From contig JAICKC010000005.1 in assembly GCA_025928155.1 (NCBI GenBank), positions 1 through 64,000 of the forward strand: a DNA stretch of 64,000 nt, in the 5' to 3' direction. The notes beneath the pieces are model-generated. The model ran no database searches and was not told the DNA's origin. It saw only the letters and a program-made list of their open reading frames with translations. Below are positions 4,122-51,223 of this stretch, piece by piece; the stretch's first letter is position 1; every line of letters begins with the position of its first letter. Source of the stretch: Candidatus Saccharimonadota bacterium (GTDB lineage: Bacteria; Patescibacteriota; Saccharimonadia; Saccharimonadales; UBA4665). The position numbers were made by a program, and so were the translations under genes.

Positions 4122-6029
4122 GTGAGCAATGCTGAGTACGACTTAGCGGGTTCTTACTCTTTAGAGTCGCTACCGCTCCAGGACATGGGAGCAGAGGCTG
4201 TTGACCCGGTTCAGCTCATGATGAGCGCAGGCCGCGGCACGGTTTTCCTGCGAGATCTGCGCCGTGACCACGAGGCAAGGGGCCGCATCGACGGCTTTGA
4301 GATAGCGAACGGAATACCCACCGGCGGACGAACCTGGAACCAATTGGACGCTGATTGGCAGGCTGCCGAGGCGAACGGACAACACCCAGAAGCTTTCTCC
4401 GCCAAGAACGTCGACACATCCAGAGCGGCGTTACGGGTCCGCGACGCCCATCCAGGCGAACTAATTGGAGAGTACACAGACTACGTTGCCGATACAGTAT
4501 TGCAGCATTGGAACGACCATCCGGGCTATGAAAAGTTGCCGAACAAGAGCGACGCGCCGGGAACGAGATTTATCAGCCCCTTCGCTGCCGACAGCGATAT
4601 TGTCGCTATGGGCAAACGGCACCGCGGTGACATGCAGGGTAGTCAAAATACCATCGACAATAGCGTCTACCTCATTAACAGGCTTGACGGGCTACTGCCG
4701 AACTTCCCGGGCTTTGATTCGATGGGTCGTGGCCAATCACCCACTCTTTCGTACGCGATTGAGTGCTTTGCATCGGCATACGGCAAGGACAGAGATGAAG
4801 TAGTAGCGCACTACCGAGAGCCGCTCGCTAAGAACGTTGAATTCTGGATGCGGGGACGGGAACAGCTTCAGCAAATACGCCATGATCGGGGCGCCATGTA
4901 CGGTCGGCAGATGCTGCTCGCGGGACGGAAACACGATATTGTCTTCCGATTCGGTAGTGATACGCCAATGGGCCCTGGACTCATGCAAGGTGTCCGCCCT
5001 GAGTCAGCTGCCGAAGATGAGGAGCTTATCCTGCGTGTCGTCGGTAACCTGACCGGCCGGGCACGCCGGCAACGAGCTCACAAGCTAAAGCGGGATGTAG
5101 AAGCCGGCTGCGAGAGCACCCAGGATTTTGCCGATTGGGAGTTTTCAAACTACCAAGATCTGGACACCATTAGGACTACCGACATCGCTCCCGCCTTCCT
5201 ACAGGCCAACATGGTGCACCAGATGCGCATGGCCGGCTACCACCAAGAAGCCAAAGAGCTGTCCGAGGTTATCATGCGCCGCTTCTTCCACCGGATTGAC
5301 GATACCCACGCCCAGTTCGCTGATTTGCTCCGCGATGGCACACCGACAAAGGCATTGCATGCTACTCAGGCGTATCCGCTCCTGGTCGGCGGCATCGTGC
5401 CGTACGAGGCTGCAATCCTGCTCGCCAACACTTGGCGCGATGCGCTCCTGCGACCCAACGGAGTGCTTATATCTGTTGGCAAGGCCGACGCACAGTGGAG
5501 CGGCAATCCGAGCGAGGTCGAAGACGAGCAACAGAATAGTTTTGTCCGACGCATGCAAGCGCGCATGTACGGCCGGCCGATGCTGGGCGGAGAAGGCGAT
5601 GACCGTTCCTGGCCCTCGGTGGGAATGCTCGTTTCTGAGAGCTTTACTATGGCCGCAATCGAGGCACAACTAAATGGCAAAGACCCCGGACCGCTCCTAG
5701 AAGTCGCCGAGATGGCACGCGTTGCTACGGTAAGTGGCATTGAGGCACGGTTTAACGCAGACCACTACATCGCCGAAAAGGTCAGTGCCGTCGATGCCAC
5801 AAAGTTCATCGACGGTGGTGAATATGCCCAGACACCCGACAAGGTCCAAAAGGGTTTTGGGATGACTATCGGTGCGCATCGCAGCCTTGCTGGCCGCAAC
5901 TTAGCGGCAGAGGTACGCTGGCCCGATGACTATTCTTGGCGGCAGTGGACCCTACGTCATGCGCTCGGTGATCTATCGATGGCTCGAACTATTACCATAC
6001 CCGTATCCAAGCGCGGCTCTCAAGTCTAG
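4122..6029 (+). CDS. GH37-type trehalase-like glycosidase
   Basis: 635 residues, GTG start with AAGGGA about 6 nt upstream. The landmarks of glycoside hydrolase family 37 appear in order: an APGTRF block near 145-150 (family PGGRF), YLINRLDGLLPN near 182-194, ESTQDF near 331-336 (family ESGWDF, catalytic acid Asp), TIRTTDIAP near 349-357, an AQW block near 457, and GGEY..GFG near 565-580 (catalytic base Glu). Both catalytic carboxylates appear kept although the classical signatures are diverged. There is no signal peptide, so it would act on cytoplasmic trehalose or a related alpha-glucoside. It converges on the ABC permease with a 4-nt overlap. Confidence 0.72.
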   Translation: MSNAEYDLAGSYSLESLPLQDMGAEAVDPVQLMMSAGRGTVFLRDLRRDHEARGRIDGFEIANGIPTGGRTWNQLDADWQAAEANGQHPEAFSAKNVDTSRAALRVRDAHPGELIGEYTDYVADTVLQHWNDHPGYEKLPNKSDAPGTRFISPFAADSDIVAMGKRHRGDMQGSQNTIDNSVYLINRLDGLLPNFPGFDSMGRGQSPTLSYAIECFASAYGKDRDEVVAHYREPLAKNVEFWMRGREQLQQIRHDRGAMYGRQMLLAGRKHDIVFRFGSDTPMGPGLMQGVRPESAAEDEELILRVVGNLTGRARRQRAHKLKRDVEAGCESTQDFADWEFSNYQDLDTIRTTDIAPAFLQANMVHQMRMAGYHQEAKELSEVIMRRFFHRIDDTHAQFADLLRDGTPTKALHATQAYPLLVGGIVPYEAAILLANTWRDALLRPNGVLISVGKADAQWSGNPSEVEDEQQNSFVRRMQARMYGRPMLGGEGDDRSWPSVGMLVSESFTMAAIEAQLNGKDPGPLLEVAEMARVATVSGIEARFNADHYIAEKVSAVDATKFIDGGEYAQTPDKVQKGFGMTIGAHRSLAGRNLAAEVRWPDDYSWRQWTLRHALGDLSMARTITIPVSKRGSQV

Positions 6030-6769
6030 TTAGCGTCGCGCTTCAGGAACAGCACCCAGGCAACTATCCACGCGATTACAAGATACACGCTGAAAACTAC
6101 CGCGGCGCTACCGTGCGTGATCGTCGAGCCATGCGGTGCGGGATTGAGCACAACTCCTTGAGCGGTAAACGGCAGATAGGCACTGTTATTTTTAAGCAGC
6201 AACGACAGCACCTGCTCGGCTATAGGTATAGCGAACAGTGATACGATGGCACCTATCTGGTTGCGGATGAGTACCGCTAACGCGAGGGCAGCCATGATAT
6301 ATGACCAGCCGCTGAATATTCCTCGCCAGATGATGCTGTGGTAGTCAATAGTCTGCGGCACCAACGTCGAACCGTGTATATGTACACCCAGGTACGACAT
6401 GGCTGGCGCCAGCACACCGACTACGGCGGTAAATACGAGCGCGTATACAGAAACGGCGATAAATTTTGCCGTCAGGGTTTTGGTACGACTATTGGATGAC
6501 GTCAGAGTGTACATGATGGTCGTATAGCGATACTCGTGCGTCATGAGCAGAATCGCTACGATGGCGCCGAAGACGGTTGGCAGCGAGGTCAGCGCGCCGA
6601 CCACATCCTCTCTGTACAGGTTCGGATTCTGTAAGTCCTTACCAGATAAGTGATAGCCTTCTATGTAAAAAGCGAAGAAGATGACAAATAGTATTGCCAG
6701 CCCAGTCAGAATATAGGTGGAGCGCACCGTGAACAGTTTGCGGAATTCGGCTTTCAAAGCTACTAACAT
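6026..6769 (-). CDS. ABC-2 type transporter permease
   Basis: 247 residues with about six membrane helices, beginning with the MLVALKAEFRKLFTVRST type N-terminus common to ABC-2 permeases. It works with the ATPase encoded directly upstream (6769-7677); stop and start touch at 6769, so translation is probably coupled. The substrate is unknown. Exporters of this form move drugs, peptides or lipids, or give self-immunity. Confidence 0.82.
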   Translation of the reverse strand: MLVALKAEFRKLFTVRSTYILTGLAILFVIFFAFYIEGYHLSGKDLQNPNLYREDVVGALTSLPTVFGAIVAILLMTHEYRYTTIMYTLTSSNSRTKTLTAKFIAVSVYALVFTAVVGVLAPAMSYLGVHIHGSTLVPQTIDYHSIIWRGIFSGWSYIMAALALAVLIRNQIGAIVSLFAIPIAEQVLSLLLKNNSAYLPFTAQGVVLNPAPHGSTITHGSAAVVFSVYLVIAWIVAWVLFLKRDAN

Positions 6770-7677
6770 TACTTTTTCACCTCCTTGGTCGCAAACTCTT
6801 CGCTGCCGGCAGTCAGCTCTAAGAACGCTTCCTCCAGCGAGGCCTGCTGCTGCGATAGCTCGTAAACGGGCACACCGGTCTCGAACGCTAGTTTGCCGAT
6901 CTCGTCGGTGCTTAGGCCCGCTACGCGTAAGCCGCCGGGCACCTTGTGGACCTCAGCCTTGGTACCGTGCAACGCCCGTTCCAACGCCGACGCCTTGGGC
7001 GAACGCACCAGCACGCCGCTGTGGCCGCTGTTTTTGATGAGCTCAGCCATAGACGTATCGGCAATGAGCTTGCCCCTGCCTATTACCACCACATTGTCGG
7101 CCATCTGCGACATTTCGCTCAGCAGGTGGCTGCTTACAAAGACGCCATTACCGCGATCGGCATAGTTTTTCAGGAATTCACGCAACCAAGCAATACCTTC
7201 GGGATCGAGGCCATTGGCCGGCTCGTCGAGCATCAGATACTTAGGCTTGCCGAGCAGGGCAGCGGCGATACCAAGGCGCTGGCTCATACCAAGGCTAAAC
7301 TTGCCTGGAGCCTTTTTGGCTACATCCGTCAGTCCCACCTCGTCCAGGACTTCATCAACGCGCTTGAGGTGTATGCCACCGGCGTCGGCCAGGATTCGCA
7401 GGTGCTGCCGCGCGGTGCGCGTGGGGTGAAAGGCCTTGGCCTCCAGTAGAATGCCAATAACCTGCGACGGTCGCGCATAGCTGTGGAGCGGCTTGTCGTC
7501 AAACAGTGTTTTGCCACTGCCATTATCAAGCCCCAGCATCAGGCGCATAGTCGTACTTTTGCCGGCGCCGTTGGGGCCCAAAAAGCCAGTGACTTTGCCC
7601 GTCTCAACCTTGAAGCTCAGGTCGTTGACGGCGAGTTTCTTGCGATAGTGTTTGGTAAGGTGTTCTGATCGGATCAC
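6769..7677 (-). CDS. ABC transporter ATP-binding protein
   Basis: 302 residues. Walker A is GPNGAGKS near 33-40, the Q-loop follows, and the signature is FSLGMSQRLG near 127-136. Walker B is YLMLDEPANGLDPEG, and the H-loop is in VFVSSHLLSEM. The C-terminal extension of about 80 residues is typical of ABC-2 exporter ATPases (BcrA/CcmA type). It forms the first gene of a two-gene operon with the permease at 6026-6769. Confidence 0.88.
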   Translation of the reverse strand: MIRSEHLTKHYRKKLAVNDLSFKVETGKVTGFLGPNGAGKSTTMRLMLGLDNGSGKTLFDDKPLHSYARPSQVIGILLEAKAFHPTRTARQHLRILADAGGIHLKRVDEVLDEVGLTDVAKKAPGKFSLGMSQRLGIAAALLGKPKYLMLDEPANGLDPEGIAWLREFLKNYADRGNGVFVSSHLLSEMSQMADNVVVIGRGKLIADTSMAELIKNSGHSGVLVRSPKASALERALHGTKAEVHKVPGGLRVAGLSTDEIGKLAFETGVPVYELSQQQASLEEAFLELTAGSEEFATKEVKK

Positions 7678-7698
7678 TAGTCTTAGTATACCAGATGG

Positions 7699-9696
7699 TC
7701 AAATATGTCGCCTGGAGCTACCTACTACATACGCTGATAGGCCATGGTACGCCGCTCTTTCTGCGAGCGTCATGCCTTGTGGCAGCTTATCGTATTGTTC
7801 GGGCCAACGGCCGGTTCGGTCATCGTGCCAGTCCTGAATATACGTATAGAAATCGTGCGGCGTGTACGTTTCGAGTCGTGCTTGCATGGCACGCATTGAA
7901 GTAAGTGCCCGCGACACCTGCTCGTCTCCTTCACCCGGTTTCGCCATAAGGCGCTTGGCAGTGTCTTCAATTTGCCGACCGTAGTATCCTTTCATAAATC
8001 CCCAAAAATCTTCACCGACTTCGCGGTACGATGTACCCGCACCAAGTAAAAAGTACAAACCTTCTGTTATAACCTCGCCAAAGACCTGCTGCACGGCCCG
8101 CTCCGGAGAGTCAAACGGGTCATATTCCTTTTGCTCGATCGTACCGAGCAGTACAGCCTTTCCTTGTTCGATCTTAGGGTAATAGCCATTGAAGTCTTCG
8201 TTGTAGGCTGGGTCATTGTAAAATGAGCGCCCGGTTTCGTCCGCTACCGCCAGAGAGTTGCCAGAGATGGACGGCTCGGGCTCACCACCCGCCAAAGCGT
8301 CCGCATGCTCCAGCACGGAAAGGTCGGCGAAAATTGGTAAGAAGCCGGCAATTTCGTATTCTCCGAGTGCACCGAACGCTCGCCCCACGTGGCCAGCAGT
8401 CCATTTTATATCGTCGTCGGAAAATATTCTGTCCCCCGGCAGGGTCGGACCAAAGAGCCTCTTCCCGCTTAAATTGCCGCTTCTATCAGCTACCGCTGGA
8501 TGCTGGCGCGTAGCAAAGCCGTCCGTCATGGGTGGCCACCATTGCTTCGGCACGTCGACAACCAGTCCGGTCGCGCCGCGTGCCTCCATGGCATCCACGA
8601 AATCCCTGGGGCGGGCATCGTGACTACACAGAGCAGCAAGCTGCACGCCCGTTTCCGCGGCCGCCTCGATAACCGACCGACCATAGCTACTCAATGAACG
8701 GGCGCCAGAAAGTACGATTACTTCCCGGCGGACCTCCCTGGTAACCGGCACGCTCATCGACAGCAGTTCCCTGTACGACCGCCGGTTTTGGACCGTGCGA
8801 GTCGTTAATAGCTGTCCAATCCTGTCCAGTAACGTACCGGTGACGGTATCGATTCCTTTTTGGGAAGCCCGGAAGTCATGGCAAATTGGTAGTTCTATAA
8901 ATTCGGCGGGCGCATACCTTGTTGCGTTTGCCAAATCACGTACTATCTTGGGGTTTATTTTTTCGTCGTACGTGCCGCCAACGAATAACGTTGGCAGCTC
9001 GTAGGCCCGGGACTCAAGTAGCTCATTAAGTCCCGCCAGCCTCCACCCGCCGCTCCCCCCTCCAGAGGTACCGAATAAGGACCTCTGAAAAGGATCCGCA
9101 TACTCAACAGCTGCCTGGGTCCCCACCTGCAAAGTAATCGAGTCACGTCTGCGCGGATCTTGAATAGAGCGATGACGTATACACGTGAGCCAGTGCTGAG
9201 AGAAATCTTGCCGATTCCTCCGTAACGTCGTGTCATGGAGTTCAACTGGATCAGACGACCGAGGAGGGTTGCGCGCCCAATCGCCGCTATAGGGCTCCAC
9301 TTGATCGAAAAAGATGGTCGGGGCTACAGCCACTGCCCCGGCAATACGATAACCCCTCTGGGAGAGTGCAAATGCATTTTGTATCGCCTCACGACCACCA
9401 AACCCGAAGCCACACAATACGGTCTCGGTCGGATCGTAGCTATCTATAACCGTCCTAATGGCGTCGAAGTAGTGATGGGGCCGAATGTTAGAAAAATAGA
9501 CACTACCATGCCGATCCTTTACCATCGGTCTCGTTGCGTCAGTTAAACCGTATATGTCCAGCACCTCACTATCTGCACCGACTTCAGGCAGATGTGAAAT
9601 CCAGCTCTGGTAGGAGTCATAGTCAGAGCGATCACCAAAACCCGGCAACCCGATGACCAGCGGTTTGCTTTCTGCTGATGTAAGCTGCTCTGTCAT
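7699..9696 (-). CDS. alpha/beta-hydrolase-like protein, nucleophile missing
   Basis: 665 residues, whole-protein family not recognised. The first 300 residues have an alpha/beta-hydrolase layout: a GLPGFGDRSDY oxyanion-like loop near 16-26, a nucleophile-elbow-like CGFGFGG near 95-101, a GGTYDEKI Asp region and ICHDF His region near 265-295. At the elbow the usual Ser/Cys/Asp is Gly, so classical catalysis is unlikely. The C-terminal half starts with a Rossmann-like stretch (VIVLSGARSLSSYG) and continues with an uncharacterised helical region. There is no signal peptide or membrane helix. It is a single gene between the ABC exporter and dus. Confidence 0.6.
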   Translation of the reverse strand: MTEQLTSAESKPLVIGLPGFGDRSDYDSYQSWISHLPEVGADSEVLDIYGLTDATRPMVKDRHGSVYFSNIRPHHYFDAIRTVIDSYDPTETVLCGFGFGGREAIQNAFALSQRGYRIAGAVAVAPTIFFDQVEPYSGDWARNPPRSSDPVELHDTTLRRNRQDFSQHWLTCIRHRSIQDPRRRDSITLQVGTQAAVEYADPFQRSLFGTSGGGSGGWRLAGLNELLESRAYELPTLFVGGTYDEKINPKIVRDLANATRYAPAEFIELPICHDFRASQKGIDTVTGTLLDRIGQLLTTRTVQNRRSYRELLSMSVPVTREVRREVIVLSGARSLSSYGRSVIEAAAETGVQLAALCSHDARPRDFVDAMEARGATGLVVDVPKQWWPPMTDGFATRQHPAVADRSGNLSGKRLFGPTLPGDRIFSDDDIKWTAGHVGRAFGALGEYEIAGFLPIFADLSVLEHADALAGGEPEPSISGNSLAVADETGRSFYNDPAYNEDFNGYYPKIEQGKAVLLGTIEQKEYDPFDSPERAVQQVFGEVITEGLYFLLGAGTSYREVGEDFWGFMKGYYGRQIEDTAKRLMAKPGEGDEQVSRALTSMRAMQARLETYTPHDFYTYIQDWHDDRTGRWPEQYDKLPQGMTLAERAAYHGLSAYVVGSSRRHI

Positions 9697-43882: not shown

Positions 43883-45346
43883 CTAGCCAGCGTGAACCGG
43901 GGCGACGGCTGCATCCTCTTGGGCAACGCCTTGGCGGCCCTTTTGCTGGAGTACGATCGTGGCGATTATGGCCGCACCAACCATGAAGCCGGAGGCGACG
44001 TAGAAGGCTGCGTGGTAGCCATGCAGCGCTGCTTCCACCGGCGTAAGTGCACCCGGATGTGCCGCATGTTTCGCAAAGCGCGTCGCACTTGAGGCTGAGA
44101 CACCGGCCAAAATCGCCAAGCCGAGCGCACCACCGACTTGCTGCGAAGTATTTAAGAGCCCTGACGCCAGGCCGGACTCGCGTCCGCTCACCCCGCTCGT
44201 CGCGGCAATGGTTATCGGCACAAAGGTCGCCCCCATACCGAGACCCATCAGGATGAAACCAGGCAGTAAGTCGTGCACGTAGCTGCCGTGCAGCGGCACG
44301 TGCGCCAGCAGGTAGAGTGCCAGTGCGACAACCAACGGCGCGACCATGAGGATTGGCTTGTAGCCAGTCTTTTTGATCAGACGTGGGATTTGCGTGGCTG
44401 AAATGGCGATAGCAAACGGAATCACCAGAAAGCTCAGACCCGTTTTTACCGGTGAGTATCGCAGCATACCCTGCACGTACAGTGATGTGAAGAAGAAAGT
44501 GCTGAACATACCGGCCATAATCGGCATCATAGTTAGGTTAGACCCGGTAATATTACGAATGCGGAAGATATTGAACGGCACCAGCGGGTGCTCACTCCTC
44601 AGCTCGTTGGCAATGAAGAAGATGAGCAGCGCCACCGCTCCGCCCAGATAGCCCAGCGTCGACCCAGCTGTCCAGCCGTGACTTGGGGCTTCCACCAGAC
44701 CGTACACCAGGAGCATCATAGCAGCGGTTATCGAAATCGCGCCGGGTAGGTCAAGGTCGTTGTGCCTCTCTTCGGACTCGTGCGCTGGCACTAAGCGCCA
44801 GGCAGCATAGAGCACGGCCGCGGCGACGGGTACGTTGACAAAGAAGTTCCAACGCCAGCCCCAGTATTCGGTAATGATGCCGCCCAGCAGCACACCGGCT
44901 GCTGCGCCGCCCGAGGCTACCGCACCCCACACACTTAAGGCAGTGTTACGTTCGTGCCCTTCTTTGTAGGTTACGAGTACGATCGACAAAGCCGCCGGCG
45001 ACATGAGTGCCGCGGCCAGCCCTTGCGCCGCGCGCAGGCCGATCAGCATGGTGCCTGACTGCGCCAGACCGTCGACCAGCGAGGCAATCCCAAACAACAC
45101 GGCACCGATCATAAATAGCCGACGACGTCCAAACAGGTCAGCCGCACGGCCGCCAAACAGCAAGAAGCCACCGAACGTCAGCGTGTAGGCCGTAACAATC
45201 CACTGCAGACTCGTCTGCGACATACCGAATGCTCTCTGCACTGCTGGCAGGGCCACGTTCACGACCGAGGTGTCGAGTACCACCATAAACTGGGCGAGCG
45301 CCAGGATTATTAGTATCCACCAGTGATGCTTATGCTTATCAGTCAT
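43883..45346 (-). CDS. MFS drug exporter, DHA2 (14-helix) type
   Basis: 487 residues, about 14 helices. Motifs of the EmrB/QacA family: LDTSVVNVALPAV in helix 1, GGRAADLFGRRR (motif A), motif-C-like GGAAAGVLLGGIITEYWGWR and a second-half ATFVPITIA region. It is an H+-driven drug exporter. The divergent MarR gene (45458) and palindromes between the two suggest local repression. Confidence 0.92.
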   Translation of the reverse strand: MTDKHKHHWWILIILALAQFMVVLDTSVVNVALPAVQRAFGMSQTSLQWIVTAYTLTFGGFLLFGGRAADLFGRRRLFMIGAVLFGIASLVDGLAQSGTMLIGLRAAQGLAAALMSPAALSIVLVTYKEGHERNTALSVWGAVASGGAAAGVLLGGIITEYWGWRWNFFVNVPVAAAVLYAAWRLVPAHESEERHNDLDLPGAISITAAMMLLVYGLVEAPSHGWTAGSTLGYLGGAVALLIFFIANELRSEHPLVPFNIFRIRNITGSNLTMMPIMAGMFSTFFFTSLYVQGMLRYSPVKTGLSFLVIPFAIAISATQIPRLIKKTGYKPILMVAPLVVALALYLLAHVPLHGSYVHDLLPGFILMGLGMGATFVPITIAATSGVSGRESGLASGLLNTSQQVGGALGLAILAGVSASSATRFAKHAAHPGALTPVEAALHGYHAAFYVASGFMVGAAIIATIVLQQKGRQGVAQEDAAVAPVHAG

Positions 45347-45357
45347 ACAGCCTCTCC

Positions 45358-45450
45358 TTTGTATTTTTACTACAAACGTATTATTATTGAACTCACAACC
45401 ATTCTAATTCCCAAATGTTGACGATGTCAACTATTTTGTAGGACAATCTT
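45358..45450. promoter_or_regulatory. divergent promoter region with MarR-type operators
   Basis: Three symmetric elements: TTTGTA-N7-TACAAA (45358-45376), GTTGAC-GAT-GTCAAC (45417-45431), and TTGT-AGG-ACAA just after. The TTTTGTAG core occurs on both strands. They lie between the MFS and MarR starts and are candidate binding sites for the MarR protein. Confidence 0.55.
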
Positions 45451-45457
45451 TGACAGT

Positions 45458-45904
45458 ATGAAGCATCAGCACATCAGCCACGAGTTCTATTTCGCACTGC
45501 TGGGAGTTTTAATGACCGCTAAGCAGCATATTGTCGCTATTGGCGGCGAGTTTGGCCTGACGAGCATACAAGCGGTCACGCTGCTACTACTCGACGCTAC
45601 TACACCCCGGCCGATGAAAAACTTCTGTACGGTATACCACTGCGATGCCAGCAACATCACTGGCATCGTGGACGGATTAGAAAGTAAGGGGCTCGTCAGC
45701 CGCCAAAGTGACGCGCACGACCGGCGCATCAAGGTCATCCAGCTTGAATCAGCCGGCCAAAGGATGCAACAACGCATTCTGGAGCGGCTAGCCGCCGACA
45801 GCGGTTACCTGTTTGATCCGCTTAACGCTACCGAGGTGCAGCAGTTTGTACGCATTGTCGAGAAACTCGCTGCCGCTAACACGGTAGGCTGCGGCGGAGT
45901 TTAG
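45458..45904 (+). CDS. MarR-family transcriptional regulator
   Basis: 148 residues. Winged helix with FGLTSIQAVTLLLLD, the recognition-helix region VYHCDASNITGIVDGLESKGLV, and the wing RQSDAHDRRIKVIQL. Dimerisation helices at both ends. It probably represses the divergent MFS exporter and itself, released by a small ligand. Confidence 0.9.
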   Translation: MKHQHISHEFYFALLGVLMTAKQHIVAIGGEFGLTSIQAVTLLLLDATTPRPMKNFCTVYHCDASNITGIVDGLESKGLVSRQSDAHDRRIKVIQLESAGQRMQQRILERLAADSGYLFDPLNATEVQQFVRIVEKLAAANTVGCGGV

Positions 45905-46255
45905 TAAGCTATAAACTGCTGCCAGACCGGTCGTCTCGGCCGGCGAACTTTTACCGACACGAAGGCCGGCGCCGACTGGGCGTCTATGATTGCAATGGTC
46001 ATTTTTGTGTTGCTCCGAGCAAGCCCCGACTTCTTTAGAAGCGGTGAGAAACGCCTGCTCTTTTCTTTTTATTAAAGTTTTTGTCTCTTCGGTGTTTACC
46101 TACACCTGGATTACATTAAGCGTAGCAAGTGCCTATGCTTGGGTCAAGCAAGAAAACTGTGGAAAACCAGAGAGGCTTCTTTGGTTAGGCGTCTGCTGCG
46201 CACATTCGTCGTTTACGACTCATCAGTACGGCTCTTAGAGTATCCGTAGTGTGCG
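45905..46255. other. intergenic region, no gene seen
   Basis: About 350 nt between the MarR gene and a long inverted repeat. It contains short imperfect palindromes (for example GGCCGGCG near 45940) and an AT-rich patch at 46060-46080. An 82-codon frame here has no ribosome site or plausible protein features. It may mark the left boundary of the foreign segment that follows. Confidence 0.4.
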
Positions 46256-46314
46256 TGTGTGGGGAGTAGCTGTTGAGATCGATGAACGACCCGCGAACAG
46301 TACTCGCCCACACA
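46256..46314. repeat. long imperfect inverted repeat
   Basis: Arms 46256-46274 and 46296-46314 pair over 18 bp with one bulged base on each side, around a 21-nt loop. No U-tract on either strand, so it is not a standard terminator. More small hairpins follow (GGAGAG/CTCTCC near 46315-46332, GGCAT/ATGCC near 46348-46361). They lie just beyond the 3' end of the ARC-like operon. Confidence 0.6.
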
Positions 46315-46399
46315 GGAGAGTGATGGCTCTCCCCCAAAGCGGTTCACGGCATGTGAATGCCATGAAGTGTCTGCCCGCTCAGCAGGGTTTGTATTACAC

Positions 46400-46729
46400 C
46401 TAGTGGCTCATCGACCCGATTGCTCGGTAGATGAGGTAGGACGAGAAGGACGCCAGGGCGACTACCACCAGGACGGAGGTGCAGAGGTCAATGACATAGA
46501 CCCCACAGTTCACCACCACCGGACGGTAAATCGCGACCGCGGCAAACGCCAGCCAATGGCTCATGCAGTTCGGGCAGCTGAACAGCTCCCCGAACCACTT
46601 GTTCCGGTTGATGATGGCGTCCCGCAAGGGCTTGGAGACCTTCGCCTTGGTGATGGTCATCGACATCGTCGAGACCGCCAAGCTCAGGAAGGCCACGACG
46701 AGCAGCGCATGGCCGTAGTCGGGTCTCAT
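46400..46729 (-). CDS. DUF1360-like membrane protein
   Basis: 109 residues from the ATG overlapping the upstream stop (TGATG); a 114-residue reading is possible. Helix near 8-28, a KPLRDAI segment, then LFSCPNCMSHWLAF, which matches the CPxC-x-x-W signature of DUF1360 proteins, and a C-terminal helix pair. Members are short membrane proteins found in Bacillus and in actinophages; function unknown. Last gene of the ARC-like operon; codons mostly end in G or C, unlike the surrounding genes. Confidence 0.7.
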   Translation of the reverse strand: MRPDYGHALLVVAFLSLAVSTMSMTITKAKVSKPLRDAIINRNKWFGELFSCPNCMSHWLAFAAVAIYRPVVVNCGVYVIDLCTSVLVVVALASFSSYLIYRAIGSMSH

Positions 46730-46908
46730 CACCAGCACCCACATCCGCTGGCCTGAGTTTCCTCCTCCGTTGAGAGGTTCTCCGCCTGCTCCAGCAGCCC
46801 CTCGACGTCGGGTACCTGCTCACGCAGTTTCTCGAGGTCGAGTTCCGTGCCGTTGCTGCCGGACGGATTGCCCGGGCGACGAGTCCTCTTGCTGTCGAAG
46901 ATTCGCAT
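46729..46908 (-). CDS. 59-residue acidic peptide ending CGCW (Pup-sized)
   Basis: Short ORF with an AAGGGAAG ribosome site. Basic N-terminus (MRIFDSKRTRRPG), a Gly/Asn/Ser linker, an acidic helix near 22-46 (LDLEKLREQVPDVEGLLEQ), and a C-terminus ending SGCGCW. Size, acidity, disorder and central coiled-coil helix resemble Pup, the proteasome tag that binds Mpa/ARC, and the upstream gene is ARC-like. It lacks the Gly-Gly-Gln/Glu end of Pup; the Cys-rich end could instead be a metal site, a lipid or ligation site, or a RiPP core. Coupled to the next gene by TGATG. Confidence 0.65.
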   Translation of the reverse strand: MRIFDSKRTRRPGNPSGSNGTELDLEKLREQVPDVEGLLEQAENLSTEEETQASGCGCW

Positions 46909-46919
46909 TGCTTCCCTTT

Positions 46920-48590
46920 CTACGCCGCAACGAGGCGACGCTTCTGGATTCCTTGGACGTCCGCATGGAACTCGCGGGTGAAGCCGGTCAGTTCCTCTCG
47001 GTGGTCGAGGTCATAGTTCTGCGCGAAGACCAGGTCAATAGCCTCCAGCAGATCGCTGGCACGAAGCCCCTCCGGAGCACTCCCGGACACAAGGTCCCGG
47101 CGCACGGCGATGGAGGTTGCCTGATCGATGATGCCGGCGATCATGGCACCGCTGACCAGCTGGCTGAGGGTGAAGTTGAGGGTCGTTCCACCCTGCAACA
47201 ACACATCGTAGAGCACCCGGCTCTCGTTGAAGAGCGATGCCGTCGCCAGCCCCGCCAGACCCTGGGCAGTGTATCCGTTCGAGAACGGCACGCGGCGCAG
47301 GTACAAGCTGAAGATGTCCTGGGCTGACGCCGGGGTCGGGCGGTCGATCTTGATCTTGCGATCGATGCGCCCATCCCGAACGATTGCCGGGTCGAGAACG
47401 TCGGGACGGTTCGTGGCCAGGATGACCACCGCGCCCGAAGCCTCGAGTCCGTCCATCTCCGTCAGGAACGTGGGTACGATCGTGCGCTCGACGTCCGAGC
47501 TGATGCCCGTGCCGCGCTTGCCCATGATGGCGTCCGCCTCATCGATGAAGATGACTGCGGGGTAGCCGTGCTCCTCGTAAAACCTCCGGGCGTGCTCAAA
47601 CATCTGCCGGATAGTGGCCTCGGCAACGCCGATGTACCTGTCCAGCATCTCCGGGCCCTTGACGTACAGGAAGCCCCCGTCGGTGGCGTGGTGCAGTCGA
47701 GCCAAGGCGGTTGCCGTGGCCTTTCCGAGCAGGGTCTTCCCGTTACCGGGGGGACCGTAGAGCAAGACACCCTTGACCGACTGCTTGCCGTAGAACTGAT
47801 ACAGGTTGGCGTGCAGAACGGGGTCCTCGATGACCTCGCGCATCACGGCCTTGGCGTCGGTAAGTCCACCGATGTCATCCCACGAGACGTTCGTGGTCTG
47901 GCTGAAGGTGAACCGAGACTCCATGCGGCCGAGCACGTGCATGATGACGTATCCGCTGGCGTCGAGGATGACGAGGTCACCCTTCTCGATGCCGTTGAAC
48001 TGGCCGGAGAGGACGACCCGGGGCGAACCCTGGTAGTCGACCTCGACTATGCTGCCGTCGTGCACGTGTTTGATGGTCACGATTTCACCATGTGGCTCCA
48101 TGTCTGCCTTGTCGACGATCTGCATCGTCTCCATCGACAGCTTGACCAGGTCGCCCAGGCGCAGGTTCAGGAACGGCGGGCGCCGGAGCTGAACGTGCTT
48201 ACCATCGTAGAACACGATGACGTACTCGTCGGTGGGGTTGATGACCTCCAGCTGCTCCGGCTGGTACCACTCGTGTGACCCGTCGCGGAACTTAATCCGA
48301 ACGTTCAGGTAGCTGCCGTCGAAGGTCAGGCTCAGGGGCGAACCGTCGGCGCTCTCGTTGATCTGCACGATCTCGCCGGCCTGGCCTTGCTTCCAGCCCT
48401 CGGTGACCCTAGCCTGATTACCTTTGGTGAAGGCTTTCCGGGACGCGGGCGGGATGGGTGTCGAGCCGACGGCGATGACGGGCGCGAGCGCGAGCGGGCT
48501 GGCGGTGAGCTGCTCCAGGAGTGTTGCCTGGGTTTTCACCGTACCCGCCAGCCTGGCCACCATGTCTCGCATGTCTTCGTAGGACGCCAT
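46920..48590 (-). CDS. ARC/Mpa-like AAA ATPase
   Basis: 556 residues. N-terminal helix/coiled coil near 1-30, OB-like domains near 65-120 and 145-215, then one AAA domain: Walker A GPPGNGKT near 279-286, Walker B VIFIDEAD near 346-353. The block RGTGISSDVERTIVP and the entry NVSWDDIGGL are characteristic of the Mpa/ARC proteasomal ATPases. The C-terminus (RRLVAA) lacks the QYL tail that docks to the 20S core, and no proteasome, ligase or Dop gene is in the window. It probably unfolds or remodels protein targets as a ring. First gene of an operon with the CGCW peptide and DUF1360 protein; codon usage is G/C-ending. Confidence 0.85.
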   Translation of the reverse strand: MASYEDMRDMVARLAGTVKTQATLLEQLTASPLALAPVIAVGSTPIPPASRKAFTKGNQARVTEGWKQGQAGEIVQINESADGSPLSLTFDGSYLNVRIKFRDGSHEWYQPEQLEVINPTDEYVIVFYDGKHVQLRRPPFLNLRLGDLVKLSMETMQIVDKADMEPHGEIVTIKHVHDGSIVEVDYQGSPRVVLSGQFNGIEKGDLVILDASGYVIMHVLGRMESRFTFSQTTNVSWDDIGGLTDAKAVMREVIEDPVLHANLYQFYGKQSVKGVLLYGPPGNGKTLLGKATATALARLHHATDGGFLYVKGPEMLDRYIGVAEATIRQMFEHARRFYEEHGYPAVIFIDEADAIMGKRGTGISSDVERTIVPTFLTEMDGLEASGAVVILATNRPDVLDPAIVRDGRIDRKIKIDRPTPASAQDIFSLYLRRVPFSNGYTAQGLAGLATASLFNESRVLYDVLLQGGTTLNFTLSQLVSGAMIAGIIDQATSIAVRRDLVSGSAPEGLRASDLLEAIDLVFAQNYDLDHREELTGFTREFHADVQGIQKRRLVAA

Positions 48591-48635
48591 TGCTGGCTCC
48601 TCCTCTTCTCGTGAAGTACTGATGAAGCGGGACGC

Positions 48636-48659
48636 CTACGGATGTAGGGCCTTACTCAT
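48636..48659 (-). CDS. 7-codon leader ORF
   Basis: In the leader of the ARC-like operon, a perfect AGGAGG sits 2 nt before an ATG that opens MSKALHP and stops at TAG. CCTAC/GTAGG around the stop can pair. The spacing of 2 nt is shorter than ideal. It could be a regulatory leader peptide whose translation affects the downstream gene, or a decoy ribosome site. Confidence 0.4.
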   Translation of the reverse strand: MSKALHP

Positions 48660-48726
48660 AGCCTCCTAAAGGTGTAGGTGCTTCCACGAATTACTAGTAA
48701 ATACAGATGTACCCGTAGACCGACAT

Positions 48727-48754
48727 ATTATAGTATAAATTCAGTTTTATTCAA
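48727..48754 (-). promoter_or_regulatory. promoter of the ARC-like operon
   Basis: Minus-strand TTGAAT (48754-48749), 16-nt spacer, consensus TATAAT (48732-48727). The transcript would have a leader of about 130 nt. GAGGAGG precedes the ATPase ATG at 48590. Confidence 0.7.
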
Positions 48755-48778
48755 GCACTTGTACCTGAGGCCTGCACT

Positions 48779-49444
48779 TTAACTTTGCCCATGGCGGATC
48801 GGGGGGAGATAGAGCCACTGTTTGCGGGCGTAGCGCCACACACTCGGCAGAATGCCGCGCGCAGGCTGGCCGGTGCGGATACTTTTACGCACGTCGGCGG
48901 AGTTTATGTGGTCGGTGCCGATATCGATAAACGTGACATTACCAAATAGGTGTTCATGACTCGTAAGCCGGCTTAAGACTTCGGCCATTTGGGCATGCGA
49001 CACCACGGCAACGACGAGGTGCAGCTTGCGATACAGCGCTGGTAGCTCGCCCTCGTACCATAGCAGCTCGCTGGCAGTGGTCAGCAAACTGAGGTCGGCG
49101 CGGGGAAGCCCGTCGACCACTCGGGTGAGGCTCTTGCTGGTGAGCCGGGCGTCCGGCAGGTCAAAAATCTCAAATTGCTTATACGGCTGAAGTGCGTTTT
49201 GGAGCATAATGCTGCGATGCACGTAGTGTTCCGGTTCGGCGCCGTGTTGGGGCCGGCGCTCTGGTACAAAGTAGACTTTTTCGAGCCCGGCAACTTTTTG
49301 ACTCTTGAGTGCAAACACAATGTGGCCCGTGTGCACCGGGTCAAAGCTGGCACTGTAAATGCCGATGCGTGGCAGTTTTTCATCGTCAAGTACAACCGGC
49401 TTGGTGCCCGGCTGGAAGTGATAGCGGGTTTCGACTTTACCCAT
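48779..49444 (-). CDS. NadD-like nucleotidyltransferase
   Basis: 221 residues from the ATG giving MGKVETRY. The nucleotidyltransferase site IGIYSASFDPVHTGHIVFAL (T/HxGH) is present and an ISSTxxR-like block reads INSADVRKSI. This is the fold of nicotinate-mononucleotide adenylyltransferase; the substrate could differ. It overlaps the 76-residue gene upstream by 8 nt and may belong to the riboswitch-headed transcript starting near 52300. Confidence 0.72.
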   Translation of the reverse strand: MGKVETRYHFQPGTKPVVLDDEKLPRIGIYSASFDPVHTGHIVFALKSQKVAGLEKVYFVPERRPQHGAEPEHYVHRSIMLQNALQPYKQFEIFDLPDARLTSKSLTRVVDGLPRADLSLLTTASELLWYEGELPALYRKLHLVVAVVSHAQMAEVLSRLTSHEHLFGNVTFIDIGTDHINSADVRKSIRTGQPARGILPSVWRYARKQWLYLPPIRHGQS

Positions 49445-49667
49445 GGCTACTCTCCAGCGGCATACCTTCACAGCATTTGGTTACGTTATGACAGGCAGGA
49501 CAAAAGAAGTGCCCGTGCACCGGTTGGATGGGATAGTGCATACACACGTCACAAAAGAGCAGCGGAGACCGCTCCTTAACCATCTCGGCGTATGGATCAT
49601 ACTCGTCGACGTTCACATGAATAGTATAAACCGGTGTCCCGAACAAACTGTAAAAATTCAGTCTCAC
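49437..49667 (-). CDS. small zinc-ribbon-like protein
   Basis: 76 residues. Pairs CDVC and CPAC with nearby His and another CC suggest a zinc ribbon near 39-67. Overlaps the gene before (4 nt) and after (8 nt), so translation is coupled on both sides. Function unknown. Confidence 0.65.
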   Translation of the reverse strand: MRLNFYSLFGTPVYTIHVNVDEYDPYAEMVKERSPLLFCDVCMHYPIQPVHGHFFCPACHNVTKCCEGMPLESSHG

Positions 49668-51223
49668 GCCGCCAGCGTGAGCGCTTTCCTACCCAACCCC
49701 AAAAACTTGTTCCAGGTCGGCGGCTGCTCGGCCTTTTGCGGTGGCGTCTCTGGCGCCTCGCAGTCCACCCTCACGCTGCAGCGTGAACACCGTTTCTCTT
49801 TAACGTTGGCCACGCGCCGATAGTTCTGGTGCCCTTTCGCACACTTAAACCACCGGCTGCCGAGGCCATCTTCATCTCTGGCACGCTTTTTGTCAGGATC
49901 TTCGTCCTGGCCACCAAACACATCCTGCGGATTGCGCTCGTTCTCTGTCAGTGGGTCATCCCCGAGACTCTTGTTCCCCAGTTTTATCTCGTTACCGCAG
50001 GCTGAGTACACACGGTTGTTGCGGGCACCGTCGGCACCGAAACCACCCAGCATATTCTGGAATTGGGCAGCACCAGCTGACTGCAAAGCGGCAGCCGAGA
50101 GGTACGCGGTGTCGCCACCATGGACGCCCTGCTGCAAAGCCCTTTCTTGCAGATGCAGAGCGCGCATCATCTCAATCGTGGAGTAGACCAGCAGCTCGTG
50201 AAGTACTACCGAGTCGTCATCGGTAAACTGGCCCTCGTTCGCTCTCATCCTGTACAGTGCCTCGGCGTACCGTTCGTTAAAGTGGCGTGCTTTGTCGGCG
50301 AGCTGGAGAATCAATGCCTTTGCTCCGGCCGTCTGGCGGCCCCGGACAAGCGACTCGCAAATATGTACGTATGATTCATTAAACGCCCGCTCCATGATTA
50401 CCCGGTACTGCTTAGTCACGTCCACGGTGTTGACGTTCTTTTTGTAGCGCGGATCGCCGGCTTTGTTGGCGATTTCTGTGGCGAGCGCCTTGGCCTGGTC
50501 TGCTGACAGCGTAGCGGTAAGGGCATATTTCAGCCAGTTGTCCGTTACCTCTCCGTCCGGTATGTGGACGCCGTACTGGCCGAATAATTCCTTGAGCCGC
50601 CGTTTGTCGCTGCCGTCAAACGACAGGGAGCCGGTGACCAGGCCGTCCTTGGTGGCGACGTACAGCTGCACGAAGCCGCGCCGCAGGTGCGGCACATAGC
50701 CGATCTTGCGCCAATACGCGTCACCGCTCTGGGCCGCCCCCTCCTCTGGGAAGGGGCTGGCCACGATGCGCACATTGTAGTCGGTTTCACCTCGGACCAT
50801 TCGGTCTACAATGAGCGCGTTTTTGTGGTCCCATACTGAGCGCGTGAGCTGGGGGTTGAACCGCGCGTCTTTTAGGGCGGTCTCTTTGGCACAGGCTAGG
50901 CCGGATTCGGTCATACCGGAAATGGCTGTTTTGAGGTCCTTGGACATGACTCGTCCGTTGACGACGGGGCGGGTGTCAAAATCACGGACTTCCAGGCCTC
51001 CACCCAGCTCCATATCCGTACCAAACCCCTCTTCCACCGAGGTGAAGAATTCGACTTTTGCTTGCGCCGCCTCGGGGCTGTTGATAACCTGGCTTTCTGT
51101 TAGCGTCTCCAGCATAAAGGCGCCGAGCCGGCGGATGGTGCCGAGTGACCGGCCGTAGATTTCGGACTCGGGCGCACGGACTGCGGCTGGGGCGGGCATT
51201 CGCTCAAGGGTGAGTGTGGACAT
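49664..51223 (-). CDS. hypothetical protein with C-terminal zinc ribbon
   Basis: 519 residues, not recognised. Mostly soluble with a mixed alpha/beta N-terminal half (VRIVASPFPEEG, GFVQLYVATKDGLVTGSLSF), a helical middle near 240-360, an acidic linker, and a C-terminal ribbon (FKCAKGHQNYR, then CSRCS). Signal peptide and membrane helix are absent. The stop overlaps the 76-residue zinc-ribbon gene by 4 nt; it follows DUF6580 after 13 nt, so cotranscription from the cobalamin riboswitch is likely. Confidence 0.62.
   Translation of the reverse strand: MSTLTLERMPAPAAVRAPESEIYGRSLGTIRRLGAFMLETLTESQVINSPEAAQAKVEFFTSVEEGFGTDMELGGGLEVRDFDTRPVVNGRVMSKDLKTAISGMTESGLACAKETALKDARFNPQLTRSVWDHKNALIVDRMVRGETDYNVRIVASPFPEEGAAQSGDAYWRKIGYVPHLRRGFVQLYVATKDGLVTGSLSFDGSDKRRLKELFGQYGVHIPDGEVTDNWLKYALTATLSADQAKALATEIANKAGDPRYKKNVNTVDVTKQYRVIMERAFNESYVHICESLVRGRQTAGAKALILQLADKARHFNERYAEALYRMRANEGQFTDDDSVVLHELLVYSTIEMMRALHLQERALQQGVHGGDTAYLSAAALQSAGAAQFQNMLGGFGADGARNNRVYSACGNEIKLGNKSLGDDPLTENERNPQDVFGGQDEDPDKKRARDEDGLGSRWFKCAKGHQNYRRVANVKEKRCSRCSVRVDCEAPETPPQKAEQPPTWNKFLGLGRKALTLAA

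Follow-up and report, generated by a model that had tools for sequence, protein, structure and literature searches.

A phage-type module of a proteasomal-type ATPase, a cysteine-tailed peptide and a DUF1360 membrane protein inserted into a Saccharimonadota chromosome

The stretch analysed here, which we call the window, comprises 64,000 nucleotides from a Candidatus Saccharimonadota bacterium (contig JAICKC010000005.1) and is contig C32 of genome G000 in our collection (1.30 Mb, 98% complete; the listed sampled genomes of the same phylum have about 0.6-1.6 Mb). An operon on its minus strand (46400-48590) encodes, in this order, an AAA+ unfoldase resembling the proteasomal ATPases Mpa and ARC (556 amino acids, 46920-48590), a small adaptor-like peptide of 59 amino acids (46729-46908) and a helical membrane protein of the family DUF1360 (114 amino acids, 46400-46744). 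Checking the open reading frames (ORFs) showed that the genes overlap or nearly touch, with 16 nucleotides (46729-46744) shared by the peptide and DUF1360 genes. The three ORFs had been reported before from the letters of the DNA alone (the sequence-only reading), and their coordinates are confirmed; the ATPase passes the cut-off of PF00004 (E 1.2e-33) and the membrane protein that of PF07098 (26.2 bits, cut-off 21).

The operon is foreign, a phage-type module that has been inserted into a bacterial chromosome. In the same-genus genome G002, the flanking MFS, MarR and adenylyltransferase-like genes are found in the same order, with 460 bp at the place where the window has 2.9 kb. Window positions 44076-45874 are colinear with positions 5392-7191 of the G002 locus (L278) and positions 48783-49636 with 7652-8538, so that the interval 45875-48782 replaces the 460 bp of the empty site. 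Since the site is empty in G002, the module is a chromosomal insert of about 2.5 kb, and contamination is ruled out by this synteny. The module is also present in another bacterial genome of the phylum, G456, between a purD-like gene and other chromosomal genes (gene names assigned by eye). A resident prophage is unsupported, because the module is flanked by ordinary chromosomal genes in both bacterial genomes. Codon usage likewise sets the operon apart, as the sequence-only reading had noted: the GC content at third codon positions is 0.78-0.90 in the operon genes and 0.65-0.73 in the neighbouring genes.

No other carrier of this type of DUF1360 was detected among the 99 relatives searched, and the only other ARC-like ATPase among them is the true ARC of G029; other genomes of the phylum carry DUF1360 alone. 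G029 belongs to the same family as the window genome and is 75% complete. Its ARC, with a long coiled coil and the docking tail GQYL, is split over two contigs (L003, C25:1-1144; L023, C6:1-681), and a match to the Pup ligase family is located at C47:1347-2471; a proteasome was not found in this 75% complete genome.

The search for the module outside the bacteria began with the megaphage LR756500, in which weak matches to the ATPase and to DUF1360 are located 300 bp apart and enclose an ORF of 79 residues containing SCCGCGCY. Further phage contigs were found with aligned ATPase queries, whereas the window ATPase as a single query against viral contigs found none. A genome scan for relatives of the ATPase gave mostly ordinary ARCs, the variability of the DUF1360 alignment precluded a scan of the collection, and PF07098 fails to detect most of the phage DUF1360 members. 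Of 83 loci examined, 29 have a DUF1360 gene at most 1.3 kb downstream of the ATPase gene; 28 of them are distinct (L179 repeats L025) and all show the same gene order, namely the window, G456 and 26 phage contigs. The phage module ATPases are about 29-55% identical to that of the window. Every one of the 28 loci contains a small ORF of 46-104 residues with a pair of cysteines between ATPase and DUF1360; the peptide is thus conserved beside the ATPase in relatives. The median gaps are 11 nucleotides between ATPase and peptide and 4 nucleotides between peptide and DUF1360, and 21-22 of 27 gaps do not exceed 50 nucleotides. Among the phage neighbours, no fourth gene is constant; they are limited to HNH nucleases, an RNA ligase and scattered AAA proteins. 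Some phages encode another, divergent AAA protein near the module (L055:1811-3301, L133:3302-4696, L154:5564-6652).

It would be conceivable that the three genes have separate functions and merely travel together, since DUF1360 and the ATPase are each also found without the others. An identical order in 28 loci of very diverged phages, overlapping genes and a cysteine signature shared by peptide and DUF1360 make this extremely improbable, and the module is almost certainly a genuine functional unit. We found no published account of this module or of such phage ATPases in the literature within reach of the search, which excluded subscription papers and preprints, and a single paper there mentions DUF1360, only in passing. 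As far as this literature shows, the system has indeed not been described before.

Judged by its sequence, the ATPase belongs to the proteasomal (Mpa/ARC-like) type and lacks the docking tail, as had been proposed for it. Among NCBIfam models it matches the proteasomal ATPase TIGR03689 best (E 1.5e-91), although the score of 307.7 bits is below the equivalog cut-off of 504.75 bits. In a profile search against the sequences of the PDB, Mpa was the sole full-length match among the matches listed, whereas Cdc48 and its relatives aligned with the AAA part only, twice. For the ATPase of locus L127, which is 49% identical to that of the window, an AlphaFold2 model was built by reading through a TAG stop, so that the peptide is included; the model shows an N-terminal helix (2-27), OB-type strands and an AAA domain with a mean predicted local distance difference test score (pLDDT) of 83. 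Among solved structures, the best 30 matches of this model are without exception Mpa, and the 26S ATPases rank below them. Profile match and model together show the architecture of coiled coil, tandem OB and AAA domains with a short coiled coil. By homology, residues 1-27 of the window ATPase (48510-48590) would form this N-terminal helix, which may be a coiled coil at the entrance of the ring. The AAA domain (residues 275-416, 47343-47768; PF00004) contains Walker A (GPPGNGKT) and Walker B (VIFIDE). Tyr-Ile-Gly at residues 319-321 (47628-47636, in KGPEMLDRYIG) corresponds to the aromatic-hydrophobic-Gly pore-loop motif for threading that has been defined for Mpa (PMC8755798). All 28 module ATPases retain an intact Walker A motif and aromatic pore loop.

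The differences to Mpa and ARC (TIGR03689; PDB 5kwa, 7px9), with which the protein shares the N-terminal helix, the OB domains, the AAA domain with its pore loop, the fold and the full-length alignment, lie in the shorter coiled coil, the score below the family cut-off, the occurrence of this type in phages, and the missing degradation machinery. The window ATPase ends with RLVAA and therefore lacks the GQYL docking tail, and no tail of this type was found in any of the 28 module ATPases. The earlier statement that no proteasome, PafA or Dop is near can be extended to the complete assembly: neither the 20S proteasome (PF00227) nor Pup (PF05639) nor PafA/Dop (PF03136) was detected in the 98% complete genome. 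In the arginine-finger block, Mpa and ARC have RPGR and the window ATPase has RDGR; its relatives have RDGR, REGR or RPGR.

In the phylogenetic tree, the ARCs form a clade with a support of 96 in the Shimodaira-Hasegawa-like approximate likelihood ratio test (SH-aLRT), and the phage ATPases are located apart from it. The window ATPase groups with those of L046 and L127 (support 85) among phage proteins, and FtsH and Cdc48 are split from it (SH-aLRT 99), so that it does not cluster with these ordinary AAA proteins. Joining the window, L046 and L127 proteins to the ARCs was not rejected in the approximately unbiased test (p 0.72). An ARC-like ATPase with 38% identity to the window protein is also encoded on a contig of a Nanoarchaeota metagenome-assembled genome (L181:4971-6596), with no adjoining peptide or DUF1360.

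The window peptide (MRIFDSKRTRRPGNPSGSNGTELDLEKLREQVPDVEGLLEQAENLSTEEETQASGCGCW) has a basic disordered start, one predicted helix and a tail with paired cysteines. It had been described as an acidic peptide of 59 residues ending with SGCGCW; size and tail are correct, but the acidity is confined to the middle, the N-terminus being basic. Common to the module peptides are the basic start, a short helix following a proline (IPDVxDxLxxLDxAI) and the cysteine tail. All 28 contain a close pair of cysteines, which in the window is Cys-Gly-Cys at residues 56-58 (46735-46743), and the cysteine count of the whole protein is always 2 or 4. In 24 of the 28 peptides the pair falls within the final 12 residues, compared with 3.6% of 830 other small ORFs from the same loci; the candidate ORFs were listed with a cysteine filter and the comparison is not blind, although the slot usually fits one ORF only. 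The tails differ in sequence, as in SGCGCW (window), SSGCTCW (L120), DDDCKC (L121), GPCGC (L123), GRGCVC (L128), GGCWC (L154), HNCEC (L135), RPPCCCC (L051), RRCCGCGC (L153) and DWCTPCE (L048). Ratios of nonsynonymous to synonymous differences (pN/pS) of 0.35-0.53 in four close pairs argue that the peptides are translated and constrained.

The sequence-only reading had linked this peptide to Pup; in a Pup-like tagging system it would be attached to target proteins and deliver them to the unfoldase as Pup delivers them to Mpa. Size, the succession of a disordered part and one amphipathic helix, and the position of the gene beside an Mpa-like ATPase are indeed shared with Pup (PF05639), and the helix motif PDVEGLLEQ (in relatives VDDTLSDLDAAL) resembles DDLLDEIDDVL of the Pup helix. 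A first hhalign comparison of 14 peptides with 44 Pup sequences from fetched ARC loci gave 75%. With 29 peptides, however, the score was 23.3 and that of the reversed-peptide control 23.5; an amphipathic acidic helix is therefore sufficient to explain the similarity. The Pup model PF05639 did not match any of the 14 peptides at E<=10, a search in which the HMMER filters drop most weak matches, and the ligase PafA/Dop was found in none of the seven phage records searched. On the grounds of the cysteine tail in place of GGQ/E, the missing Pfam match, the missing ligase and the similarity at control level, the identity with Pup is rejected, and together with the absence of Pup, ligase and proteasome from the genome these results make a Pup-like tagging function very improbable. 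It is possible that the peptide helix binds the coiled coil as Pup does.

The third protein was modelled with AlphaFold2 as an all-helical membrane protein (pLDDT 91). The model has no fold match among solved structures, and its viral fold matches carry the name DUF1360; with this family it also shares a CxxC motif, which in the window is CPNC at residues 57-60 (46565-46576), where the second transmembrane helix begins. A module with an ATPase and a cysteine-tailed peptide is absent from the searched literature on DUF1360. The counts of lysine plus arginine are 3.8 for loop 1 and 0.8 for loop 2, and by the positive-inside rule the CxxC would face the cytosol. Both cysteines are invariant in 30 aligned DUF1360 proteins and the proline varies (CWWC, CVYC, CTYC, CFYC), which favours metal binding over a glutaredoxin-like catalysis.

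This conservation pattern also bears on a function in redox or metal handling, in which CxC and CxxC would exchange a disulfide or a metal while the ATPase remodels the client protein. CPxC does resemble glutaredoxin-type sites, and standalone DUF1360-like genes on three unrelated plasmids, from Klebsiella, Azospirillum and Pantoea (L026, L029, L030), each adjoin an Rrf2-type regulator. Such regulators often sense Fe-S clusters or thiols, and this neighbourhood hints at a metal or thiol theme. Since the proline varies next to two fixed cysteines, no thioredoxin-type fold was matched and the cytosolic face is reducing, we consider an exchange reaction unlikely. Standalone genes are likewise found in Gordonia phages, where a DUF1360-like gene directly precedes the portal gene (L031:3927-4235, L032:3950-4243); in one of these phages, Sixama, the DUF1360-like gene is preceded by a small cysteine-rich ORF (CTC, CDC).

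Each of the two putative binding partners thus carries a pair of cysteines, in all 28 peptides and in all aligned DUF1360 proteins. A similar situation is known from the zinc clasp, in which CD4 and CD8-alpha, by means of their CxCP tails, share a zinc ion with Lck on the cytosolic side of the membrane (PMC12198760). The two systems have in common CxC on one partner, a cysteine pair on the other and the location at the cytosolic membrane face; they have no sequence relation, and the likeness is an analogy only. We propose the following mechanism. The ATPase, as homology and the intact motifs suggest, would form an Mpa-like hexamer and thread proteins through its pore. The peptide would serve as adaptor: its helix would dock on the coiled coil at the N-terminal entrance of the ring, and its terminal cysteine pair would bind the CxxC of DUF1360 at the cytosolic face, in the simplest case by one zinc ion shared by two plus two cysteines. 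Held at the inner membrane in this way, the ring could pull out, unfold or remodel proteins that are embedded in the membrane or bound to it, and would leave them undegraded. We assign a probability of about 0.45 to such a membrane-recruited, protease-free unfoldase operating by this mechanism; that zinc in particular forms the bridge, which is suggested by analogy, is rather doubtful. FtsH, a membrane-anchored AAA protease, also puts an AAA unfoldase at the membrane, but the module ATPase belongs to a separate clade, has no protease domain and would use a separate protein as anchor. The genome encodes its own FtsH-like protein (L002).

Alternatively, the terminal CC, CxC or CCCC could be acylated or prenylated like the C-termini of Rab proteins, with DUF1360 as an enzyme or lipid-handling partner, and the peptide would then tether the ring without metal. 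Cysteines within three residues of the C-terminus are found in 20 of the 28 peptides (CGC, CKC, CWC, CCCC), and the cysteines of CD4 are palmitoylated, too (PMC12198760). In the other eight peptides the distance of the pair from the C-terminus is 4 to 39 residues, and DUF1360, having no fold match among solved structures, was not matched to any known enzyme. To our knowledge, bacteria have no such pathway for lipid anchors, and we regard this explanation as quite unlikely.

The phages without an adjacent DUF1360 gene provide information on the role of the cysteines. Of 29 such records that were checked, all but one lack DUF1360 over their whole length; the exception is a phage contig of 533 kb with the ATPase L049, in which a DUF1360-like match is located about 0.3 Mb from the ATPase gene (L266, G470:C1:412000-422000). 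Peptides with cysteines in such phages have a three-cysteine element, CxCGxPxC (L137, L142, L149, L145), for example CICGNPGCGIGP. In 17 of 53 phages without adjacent DUF1360, CGDPxCxxC (CGDPNCxxC or a sequence close to it) is part of the ATPase, at its N-terminus. This group includes L028, L054, L057, L063 and L066, all lacking DUF1360, and its members from Brevundimonas phages are labelled 'proteasome-associated ATPase'. From its sequence, we read the N-terminal CGDPxCxxC as the cysteine element of the peptide fused at the ring entrance, which would make the link between peptide and ATPase independent of gene order alone. It would also speak against the small ORF being a product that is matured by the ATPase and passed on by DUF1360, since an element fused to the ATPase is expected to be a working part. 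A variable core with a conserved cysteine tail and a membrane protein in the operon would fit such a processing or export system, the third option named by the sequence-only reading; the unit has, however, neither protease nor modifying enzyme nor transporter, and this function appears improbable.

Several observations weigh against the membrane-recruited unfoldase. Standalone DUF1360 proteins, beside the portal genes of Gordonia phages and on plasmids, retain the CxxC in the absence of this peptide, and the motif must thus have a role beyond peptide binding. The connection between cysteine tail and DUF1360 has a modest phylogenetic weight, with five independent changes, only one of which is on well-supported branches. 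In the peptides of L025, L058, L060 and L175 the cysteine pair is 32-39 residues away from the end. In the read-through model of L127, for which only four alignment rows held both ATPase and peptide, the peptide helix has a pLDDT of 64-72, its flanks are disordered and no docking is seen. Contacts among the three proteins as well as the metal binding are inferred.

On a larger scale, we tentatively suggest a widespread and undescribed phage system, in which a tiny, detachable adaptor with a cysteine pair would dock a protease-free proteasome-type unfoldase to the host membrane by way of DUF1360, a dedicated receptor clasped through a shared metal ion; bacteria would have captured this system as a stand-alone chromosomal cassette. 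For the phages, one may guess that it extracts proteins of the host envelope or of host defence, or that it serves in superinfection exclusion; that the two bacteria captured it for defence or quality control is likewise a guess. If the proposal is true, DUF1360, a membrane family of many phages and bacteria, would obtain its first function, and Mpa/ARC-type unfoldases would exist in phages apart from Pup and proteasome. It would furthermore extend the clasp-like tether of two plus two cysteines to bacteria and be a phage tool that handles membrane proteins by unfolding instead of cutting.

At 49664-51223, the window encodes a protein of 519 residues with a C-terminal stretch resembling a cysteine ribbon (CAKGH...CSRCS); it has no Pfam match, and the interval has no DNA match in G002. 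A search of Rfam returned as sole match a weak hammerhead far below the cut-off. The promoter described by the sequence-only reading, TTGAAT-16-TATAAT (48727-48754, minus strand), is present and a good match, but is not significant, with 0.8 such sites expected by chance. AGGAGG is located immediately upstream of the start codon of the ATPase gene. Of the flanking inverted repeat reported earlier, the downstream one is real: directly 3' of the operon, the minus strand can form a long hairpin (46256-46314) without a U run, a candidate structure for the transcript end, with a folding z of -4.45 and none of 200 shuffled sequences as stable.

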